Assembly: GCA_014382375.1 (NCBI GenBank)
Contig: JACNJU010000078.1
Span: 1-50,991, forward strand
DNA from: Rhodospirillaceae bacterium
GTDB lineage: Bacteria; Pseudomonadota; Alphaproteobacteria; Rhodospirillales; JABHCV01
DNA length: 50,991 nt
Direction of reading: 5' to 3'
Shown: piece by piece, positions 3,618 through 5,555 of the stretch
Position numbering within the stretch: position 1 is the first letter of the stretch
Layout: the number at the start of each line of letters is the position of its first letter
The notes under the pieces: model-generated
Seen by the model: the letters and a program-made list of their open reading frames with translations, nothing else
The model's database searches: none
Told to the model about the DNA's origin: nothing
Made by a program: the position numbers and the translations under genes

Positions 3618-4100
3618 ATGAGTAAAGCAGCAGTTAAACGTAAACCCCGTGCCCCCAAACCCGATGACGCCCTTCTCGGCGTTCCTCGTGCCGTAGACAT
3701 GCATGTCGGCGCCCGCTTGAGGTTGCGCCGAACCTTGCTAGGCATCAGTCAGGAAAAACTTGGCGAGTCCGTTGGTTTGACCTTTCAGCAAATTCAGAAG
3801 TACGAACGCGGTGCCAACCGGGTTGGTGCATCCAGAATTTATGAATTCTCTCGCGTCCTTGATGTTCCAGTATCGTATTTCTTTGACGAAATGAACGACG
3901 TCACGAAGGCAACCCGGGGTCGCCGTATTGACCTTAAGGGTCTGACCGATAGCGAGCAGGTGGAGCTGGAATCTGATCCGCTGGCCCGCCGCGAAACCCT
4001 GGAGCTGGTCCGCGCATATCACAAGATCAACGATCCAAAAATTCGCAAACGTTTGTTTGAATTGACAAAAACTCTGGCCAATAGCCAGGTCGATTCCTGA
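3618..4100 (+). CDS. XRE-family helix-turn-helix transcriptional regulator
   Basis: A 160-residue cytoplasmic regulator. A basic N-terminal tail is followed by a Cro/CI-type helix-turn-helix at about residues 32-90 (RLRLRRTLLGISQEKL, then LTFQQIQKYERGANRV). The C-terminal half is a charged helical region without a recognisable ligand domain. Small XRE proteins of this type commonly sit between lnt and metK in alphaproteobacteria (PhrR-like); targets are unknown to me. Start ATG 3618 has an AGGGT stretch about 11 bases upstream. It stands alone between two non-coding gaps, so it probably has its own promoter. Confidence 0.88.
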   Translation: MSKAAVKRKPRAPKPDDALLGVPRAVDMHVGARLRLRRTLLGISQEKLGESVGLTFQQIQKYERGANRVGASRIYEFSRVLDVPVSYFFDEMNDVTKATRGRRIDLKGLTDSEQVELESDPLARRETLELVRAYHKINDPKIRKRLFELTKTLANSQVDS

Positions 4101-4237
4101 AAAAAGCATACAACGGTAAAACCCCCTGTTTAGGCATGGAATTTTGGCTGTCCGGCGGGCATTGAAAATGCTTGACCGGCCTTCAAAATATTGACAAAAG
4201 AACGACTTGGACGAGCCTGTGAGGGTTTGTTTGAATG

Positions 4238-4292
4238 CTCGTGGATGGATTTGGACTACTTGCCGCCACGTTAAATATTGCGCTAAGTGGGC
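4238..4292 (+). promoter_or_regulatory. SAM-II (metA-type) riboswitch before metK
   Basis: The sequence carries the conserved landmarks of the alphaproteobacterial SAM-II aptamer in order: CGTGG (4240-4244), GATTTG (4248-4253), CTTGC (4259-4263), GCCACGTTAAA (4265-4275) and GCTAA (4282-4286). Helix P1 pairs CGTGG 4240-4244 with CCACG 4266-4270. The pseudoknot pairs CUACUU 4256-4261 with AAGUGG 4285-4290, six pairs including one G-U. The next gene is SAM synthetase, the logical target for feedback by S-adenosylmethionine. Assignment is from remembered consensus and hand pairing; a covariance-model search would settle it. Confidence 0.85.
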
Positions 4293-4315
4293 TACATGTT
4301 AAACGGCAAGACCGT

Positions 4316-4366
4316 TTCGGCCCTTGGTCCAGTTGGACAAATAATGCAATGATCGAAGGGATCGAA
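4316..4366 (+). promoter_or_regulatory. Putative ribosome-site-sequestering helix (metK expression platform)
   Basis: The metK ribosome-binding site AAGGG (4356-4360) can pair with CCCTT at 4321-4325, extended by TTCG 4316-4319 with CGAA 4363-4366 across a small internal loop. This would hide the ribosome site. A competing upstream hairpin, AAACGG 4301-4306 with CCGTTT 4312-4317, shares bases 4316-4317 with it. The arrangement fits translational control by the aptamer upstream, but how the two are linked is inference. Confidence 0.45.
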
Positions 4367-4367
4367 C

Positions 4368-5555
4368 ATGTCAAGAGCCGACTATTTATTTACCAGTGAA
4401 TCAGTATCCGAAGGCCATCCCGATAAAGTCAGCGACCGGGTATCAGACGCCGTCGTTGACGCTTTTCTTGCAGCTGATCCGTATTCCAGGGTCGCCTGCG
4501 AAACACTTTGCACAACCAACAGGGTCGTCCTTGCCGGTGAAGTACGTGGCCCGGACTCGCTGGTTGATTCAAAAGGCAATGTTAATAAGACCCGGATGGA
4601 AGAAATTGCCCGCCAGTCGGTGAAAGACATTGGCTACGAGCAGGAAGGCTTCCATTGGCAACATACCGATGTTGAGGTTCACCTGCATGGTCAGTCCGTC
4701 GATATTGCCATGGGTGTTGACGCCACTGGTAACAAGGACGAAGGTGCCGGTGATCAGGGCATCATGTTCGGCTATGCCTGTAACGAAACTGCAAGCCTGA
4801 TGCCGGCCCCCATTCATCTTTCCCATGCCATATTACGCTCGCTCGCCGATGTCAGGCATTCAGGCGCGGAACCGGGCCTGCTGCCGGATTCGAAAAGCCA
4901 GGTAACCTTGCGTTATGTTGACGGCAAGCCAGTCGGGGCGACGTCCGTCGTGGTCTCGACCCAGCATACCGAGAACCTGAGCCAAGACGATGTCCGTGAA
5001 ATTGTTCGGCCCCATGTCGAGACCATTTTGAAAAATGGCTGGATGTGTCCCGAAGATGAATTCTATGTCAATCCGACGGGCCGTTTTGTCATTGGCGGAC
5101 CCGATGGAGATGCCGGTCTGACTGGACGTAAAATCATCGTCGATACTTATGGTGGTGCGGCACCCCACGGTGGTGGCGCATTTTCGGGCAAAGACCCCAC
5201 GAAAGTTGATCGCTCGGCAGCTTACGCGGCGCGCTATCTTGCGAAAAATGTCGTTGCCTCGGGCATTGCCGAACGGTGCACGCTGCAACTCGCTTACGCC
5301 ATCGGCGTTTCCAAACCGCTGTCTGTCTACATTGACACCCACGGGACTGGTGAAGTCGATGAAGACAAGCTTGTCACGACGCTTTGCGAGATGGTTGATC
5401 TGAGCCCCCGCGGTATTCGCGAACACCTCAAGCTGAGCCGGCCAATCTATGCCCGCACTGCCGCTTATGGCCACTTTGGCCGTGAGGCTGATCCCGACGG
5501 CGGCTTCTCGTGGGAGAAAATCGATCTCGCCGATGCCCTCAAATCGGCGTTCTGA
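4368..5555 (+). CDS. metK: S-adenosylmethionine synthetase
   Basis: A 395-residue cytosolic enzyme that makes SAM from methionine and ATP. Family landmarks are present: [10 protein letters not shown] at the N-terminus, the central hexapeptide-like [12 protein letters not shown] and the glycine-rich [16 protein letters not shown] that contacts phosphate. The length is that of typical bacterial MetK. Start ATG 4368 has AAGGG eight bases upstream. The gene lies behind a SAM-II-like riboswitch, so its translation is probably lowered when SAM is abundant. The 3' end overlaps trmB by 23 bp, coupling a SAM producer to a SAM-consuming methyltransferase. Confidence 0.98.

Follow-up and report, generated by a model that had tools for sequence, protein, structure and literature searches.

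The window analyzed here, meaning the whole stretch of DNA under study, is a contig of 50,991 nucleotides (JACNJU010000078.1, assembly GCA_014382375.1) of a Rhodospirillaceae bacterium in the order Rhodospirillales. It contains a metK gene encoding SAM synthetase, and a SAM-II-type pseudoknot is located upstream at positions 4240–4290, with metK 77 bases further on. The features of the metK leader are as follows.

4240–4244, + strand: P1 5′ strand (CGTGG), partner of 4266–4270
4248–4263, + strand: loop L1, conserved GATTT...CTTGC, SAM-II positions U10–U12 and U20–C23 (letters and leader alignment)
4252–4257, + strand: helix A 5′ strand (TGGACT), part of L1, can pair with 4326–4331
4256–4261, + strand: pseudoknot P2 5′ strand (CTACTT), partner of 4285–4290
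4266–4270, + strand: P1 3′ strand (CCACG), partner of 4240–4244
4285–4290, + strand: pseudoknot P2 3′ strand (AAGTGG; pair counts, RNAalifold and letters)
4287, + strand: G at SAM-II position 47, directly after CUAA; canonical copies have A
4289–4293, + strand: P3 5′ strand (GGGCT), two-base overlap with P2, can pair with 4319–4323
4319–4323, + strand: P3 3′ strand (GGCCC; pair counts and letters)
4321–4325, + strand: anti-ribosome-site strand (CCCTT), CCC shared with P3, can pair with 4356–4360
4326–4331, + strand: helix A 3′ strand (GGTCCA), can pair with the loop letters UGGACY (4252–4257)
4356–4360, + strand: metK ribosome-binding site (AAGGG), 7 bases before the ATG at 4368
4368–5555, + strand: metK, SAM synthetase, 395 amino acids (TIGR01034, 484.9 bits, cut-off 309.4)

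An XRE-type helix-turn-helix gene (3618–4100), which gave one weak match below the cut-off against NCBIfam, lies directly 5′ of the leader, and the same C-terminal letters of this gene are visible upstream of metK in many relatives. Ahead of P1, a TTGAC block, a spacer and an A-rich block (4160–4200 in the window) were observed in those aligned leaders that extend far enough upstream; these blocks are possibly the metK promoter.

Anatomy of the Aptamer

A sequence-only reading of the window had described P1, a six-pair pseudoknot and the SAM-II landmarks in front of metK, and each of them was recovered from the letters. The GAUUU, UUGC and CUAA blocks are present in the window; the same blocks served to find the relatives, so that block counts among relatives are circular. 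The structure was followed through 91 unique leaders from 113 parsed, of which 75 named ones had been retrieved with a pattern requiring G after CUAA. P1 is paired in 454 out of 455 cells, with compensatory changes from C-G to U-A (15) and from G-C to A-U (3), and covariation supports this helix. P2 consists of six pairs in the window, five Watson–Crick and one U-G, and is paired in 545 out of 546 cells among the 91 leaders. Shuffles give no discrimination for P2 since most of its pairs are invariant. RNAalifold applied to alignment A2, which holds 30 of 37 leaders (L064, L067, L071, L081, L082, L087 and L090 were left out), returned the six P2 pairs and one G-U pair, and did not return P1, helix A or P3.

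The register of L1 is that of SAM-II, as fixed by the base triples U11-U21-A45 and U12-U20-A46 of the 2QWY structure in the accessible portion of PMC3764141. All ligand-facing bases other than position 47 are kept (U10–U12, U20, U21, U44 and A45).

Among the 136 matches of a wider scan described below, about seven carry one broken P2 pair when judged by eye (G047, G407, G510, G515 twice, G492 and G507), and G370 has a U-A pair at P2 pair 17-49. G407, G510 and G515 represent a sub-lineage with CTAAGAGG and the loop CNCCTR, in which the outer pseudoknot may pair out of register around a single bulged base, as canonical SAM-II does.

Relationship to Known SAM Riboswitches

An Rfam scan of the whole window at gathering thresholds gave no match. 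At a relaxed threshold, where alone these matches surface, the SAM_alpha model (RF00521) was covered completely at 4231–4307 with 25.9 bits and E = 4.7e-4 (search space 301 bases and 4227 families), short of the gathering score of 36, and the SAM-II long loop model (RF01726) scored 19.8 bits, below its gathering score of 44. The covariance-model check proposed with the sequence-only reading returned a whole-model match that falls short of the Rfam cut-off. The models for SAM/SAH (RF01727) and SAM-V gave no match up to E = 10 within 4100–4400. The SAM_alpha match is taken as more than chance because the motif recurs in the metK leaders of other genomes of the order. In relatives, 13 out of 20 examined loci with weak RF00521 matches precede metK, and a single metK-type copy out of 37 passes the RF00521 gathering score (G002, 39.1 bits). 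Weak RF00521 matches at seven loci that lack the motif (L039, L042, L044, L048, L052, L055 and L057) were regarded as chance.

P1, P2 and the conserved blocks are thus present, and the adenine after CUAA and a score at gathering are absent. Because it lacks the aminoacyl-contacting A and stays under the Rfam cut-off, the element was filed as a SAM-II-derived variant: it resembles a SAM-II riboswitch in anatomy, yet lies outside strict SAM-II membership. The original proposal of a SAM-II riboswitch before metK holds in so far as the aptamer is of SAM-II type; that it is a plain SAM-II copy does not hold.

The element shares with SAM-II the P1 hairpin, the loop-to-downstream P2 and the GAUUU, CUUGC and CUAA blocks in the same register, and differs in G47, the metK target and the anti-ribosome-site platform. 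The number of bases between UUU and UUGC is presumably seven in the Sargasso Sea metX SAM-II riboswitch, as in the metK element. The metX riboswitch is of translational type, as is proposed for the metK element, but the ribosome site lies inside P2 in the metX riboswitch (2QWY) and 65 bases past the last pseudoknot base (4290) in the window, behind a separate strand; this long distance had been noticed before and was confirmed. The Sinorhizobium meliloti metA SAM-II riboswitch likewise has a predicted translational platform with an off-standard distance to the start codon, but it belongs to the canonical aptamer class, has its ribosome site near the aptamer and a start codon 74 bases further on (PMC9373788, accessible portion). 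SAM-V shares the pseudoknot and the ligand pocket of the SAM-II family (PMC6061858), but its ribosome site is joined to P2. The SAM/SAH riboswitch is another small pseudoknot that precedes metK in a different alphaproteobacterial order; its conserved letters, we presume, differ from those of the metK element. The accessible parts of the sources place SAM/SAH riboswitches before metK in Rhodobacterales and describe them as making few contacts with the methionine chain (PMC7367207).

As far as the accessible part of a regulon study extends, SAM-II targets are metA, metX, metY/metZ, metC and hom, and SAM_alpha is confined to Rhizobiales and Rhodobacterales, metY being the core target (PMC4239095); the metK element would add metK control in a group outside that range. 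The main text of the SAM-II discovery paper, as far as it was accessible, does not mention metK. The open-licence literature yielded no report of metK with SAM-II in Rhodospirillales, Magnetospirillum or Thalassospira, nor of an altered SAM-II specificity, and a paywalled or supplementary report may exist for either.

Distribution of the metK Element

A sample of 60 genomes, spanning the window's own genus to its order and including the window's genome, was screened. All 60 genomes contain metK, and 37 carry the motif in a metK leader (L123, which shares its genome with L061, was dropped before this count). One family (f8) has two metK leaders with damaged copies: L088 retains the half with the P1 hairpin and lacks the downstream strand, and L096 has lost P1. 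The same family also has intact copies (L103). Other Rfam riboswitches scoring above gathering were absent from 20 of the 28 metK-like loci without the motif. A second metK-like gene with 39–55% identity to the MetK of the window was observed in G035, G039, G042, G051 and G028, and the second copy in G039 has an in-frame TGA.

A pattern scan of a named public genome collection returned 106 stretches, for 80 of which a name was listed, and metK follows on the same strand in 104 of these at a distance of 56–198 bases (median 74); the remaining two stretches end 45 and 47 bases past the motif. The named carriers are Thalassospira, Magnetospirillum, Paramagnetospirillum, Phaeospirillum, Terasakiella, Magnetovibrio, Telmatospirillum and Tistrella mobilis, alongside many metagenome-assembled Rhodospirillales. 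Within the order, the metK-type pattern with G gave 136 matches in 133 out of 297 genomes, with metK adjacency checked for the 37 matches that belong to the initial 60 genomes. When 240 genomes across the class were scanned with a metK-type model (R1), seven genomes scored at least 42 bits, the next score being 31.3 bits. Four loci from outside the order among these seven (L234–L237; G220 was left out) have metK directly after the motif. One of them (L236, in G124) has different P1 letters (GCGG/CCGC), a G-C pair at P2 pair 17-49 and a mismatch at 18-48.

G Replaces A at Position 47

Canonical SAM-II copies coexist with the metK element. On a different contig, the window genome has a single strong canonical copy scoring 58.4 bits, and at least one canonical match above the cut-off was also counted by hand in 28 of the 37 metK-type genomes. 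A MetZ-type protein is encoded on the same strand after all 30 of the best canonical copies of the order, and six of these 30 proteins pass the model for O-succinylhomoserine sulfhydrylase (TIGR01325). L1 of the metK type is four bases shorter than L1 of these metZ copies.

The two types are further separated by the base after CUAA. It is A in all 30 canonical copies and G in all 37 metK leaders that had not been selected for this base (as well as in 91 out of 91 unique leaders, most named ones of which had been selected for G). A search of the 297 genomes for the metK-type pattern with a base other than G gave two matches, both judged spurious because neither retrieved stretch contains metK and neither shows a P1 partner by eye. 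In SAM-V the equivalent base is A50, which forms bonds with the carboxyl and amine groups of SAM; substitution by purine weakens binding and inosine severely reduces it (PMC6061858). The equivalent A is also listed among the ligand sites of SAM-II in the accessible part of PMC11508383, the mapping of the numbering being our own. The change from A to G probably weakens or alters the hold on the aminoacyl end of the ligand and argues against SAM being held as it is in SAM-II.

A Conserved Downstream Strand with Two Possible Partners

Downstream of the aptamer, nearly all of the 91 leaders contain a strand consisting of GCCC, zero to four bases and GGTCCA. Its copy in the window (4320–4331), which the sequence-only reading had missed, can pair back into the aptamer. 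Helix A, formed by loop and GGTCCA, is paired in 488 out of 546 cells among the 91 leaders and in 225 out of 258 cells among 43 representatives. The pair of C16 is C-G in 80 leaders, U-A in four, U-G in three and unpaired in four; its count was reached by 0 of 2000 shuffles with all leaders and by 107 of 2000 with the 43 representatives. An A at position 2 of the downstream strand is not confined to leaders with U16, as one of the five cases has C16. The helix is mismatched in several lineages, and Magnetospirillum keeps only the four inner pairs. P3 is paired in 411 out of 454 cells, mostly invariant, and its outermost pair exceeds the shuffles (1 of 2000). Neither a longer P3 stem (589 of 5000 shuffles) nor a conserved small hairpin after GGUCC (GGUCC..GGAYC, 1091 of 5000 shuffles) was supported.

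The pairing of the ribosome site with 4316–4325, taken in the sequence-only reading to suggest a separate expression platform, was verified by direct reading as TTCG/CGAA plus CCCTT/AAGGG, nine pairs around an internal loop (4316–4325 with 4356–4366). Among the 43 representatives, GCCCYY pairs with its own ribosome site at −9.89 kcal/mol versus −8.88 kcal/mol for shuffled sites, and the own site beats the median of the others' sites in 28 of 43. The comparison of relatives thus favors the ribosome-site helix for the group, but not for the window alone, where the pairing (−8.9 kcal/mol) is no better than with the sites of others (median −9.1). Both pairings were also compared with shuffled combinations in successively thinned sets, where thinning removes relatedness only partly and the figures are not clean probabilities. 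Shuffled helix A duplexes beat the own duplex in 0 of 5000 cases with 43 representatives, 7 with 27, 25 with 16 and 322 with 9, and the corresponding numbers for the anti-ribosome-site pairing are 1, 14, 81 and 797 of 5000. The tests weaken with thinning, and at nine representatives they are not significant. The conserved strand nevertheless fits its own loop and its own ribosome site better than those of others, which agrees with the separate downstream expression platform suggested from the sequence, and it can, by its letters, pair with either the aptamer loop or the ribosome site.

Proposed Switching Mechanism and Alternatives

The reading that we favor, with somewhat more confidence than doubt, is that the metK leader is a SAM-II-derived aptamer acting as a translational OFF switch through an exchange of pairings, with SAM as the most likely ligand. 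Bases 16–17 and 49–50 each have two possible partners, in P2 or in the downstream strand (helix A or P3). Without ligand, the loop UGGACU (4252–4257) would pair with GGUCCA (4326–4331) in helix A and GGGCU (4289–4293) with GGCCC (4319–4323) in P3, which would occupy the CCC of the anti-ribosome-site strand, leave the ribosome site free and allow MetK to be made. With ligand bound, most likely SAM, the loop would complete P2 with AAGUGG (4285–4290), so that helix A and P3 would lose two bases each; the released CCCUU (4321–4325) could then pair with AAGGG (4356–4360) and block translation. Helix A is assigned to the ligand-free state because the triplex, if formed, would place U11–U12 along P2, from where G13 could not reach the far end of helix A; we infer from this that helix A and the ligand-bound fold are mutually exclusive, and the direction of the switch and its ligand are inferred likewise. 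When the aptamer strands were blocked in ViennaRNA, the cost of opening the ribosome site increased in 32 out of 43 representatives, with a mean rise of 0.87 kcal/mol compared with 0.23 kcal/mol for random blocks (Wilcoxon p = 1.5e-4, uncorrected for kinship). In the window itself the block lowers the opening cost (−1.53 kcal/mol), and since this points the opposite way the OFF-switch model for the window draws on its relatives. The element is probably SAM-responsive with a retuned recognition.

A tentative extension, on balance unlikely, is that the metK element has become a separate class. It would have arisen from a SAM-II duplicate that moved to metK, fixed the change from A to G and thereby shifted either the preferred ligand or, by orders of magnitude, the set point; the duplicate would also have acquired a translational platform based on pseudoknot exchange. 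If so, two sister RNAs in one cell would read the same pathway at two settings. Also unlikely is a variant that no longer recognizes SAM and instead binds a relative such as decarboxylated SAM, SAH or another adenosyl compound. The fixed G47, with no credible exception in 297 genomes, the inosine effect at SAM-V A50 and the precedent of spermidine-sensing SAM-I variants (PMC10853860, accessible portion) speak for such a change, which would be a further case of a SAM aptamer evolving a new specificity. It is countered by the position of the element before metK, whose product makes SAM, and by the lack of change in the bases contacting adenine and sulfonium, and the carboxylate could be held by G in another way.

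Two further readings appear improbable. Helix A and P3 could instead belong to the ligand-bound state, forming a three-way junction with a four-pair P2, so that the ligand would free the ribosome site and turn metK ON. Such a junction is suggested by the downstream strand, which pairs with both strands beside P2, leaves no base unpaired on two sides and gains four pairs of G-C type in exchange for two; it conflicts with the SAM-II triplex geometry as deduced from the register (PMC3764141, accessible portion) and with the in silico blocking, which had the opposite effect in 32 of 43 representatives, and it would imply positive feedback on the enzyme that makes the ligand. The case for a canonical SAM-II riboswitch that has merely diverged and recognizes its ligand as before is similarly poor: P1, P2, the other conserved bases and the RF00521 E-value agree with it, but the fixed G47, the shorter loop, the different platform and the gap between the R1 scores do not.

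That transcription termination, the mode of most SAM-II elements, is the main form of control is highly implausible and was rejected, as terminator-like hairpins follow 8 of the 91 metK-type leaders, a number that does not exceed the mean of 10.8 after shuffling, and none was found in the leader of the window. By the same single script criterion, terminator-like hairpins follow 28 of the 30 metZ copies (shuffled mean 2.6). The metZ copies with A and mostly a terminator and the metK copies with G and an anti-ribosome-site strand represent a natural paired experiment, which could show how a single ligand-contact base and a single platform are fitted to a particular gene. In the window genome, a terminator-like hairpin was found after the metZ copy by the scan tool.
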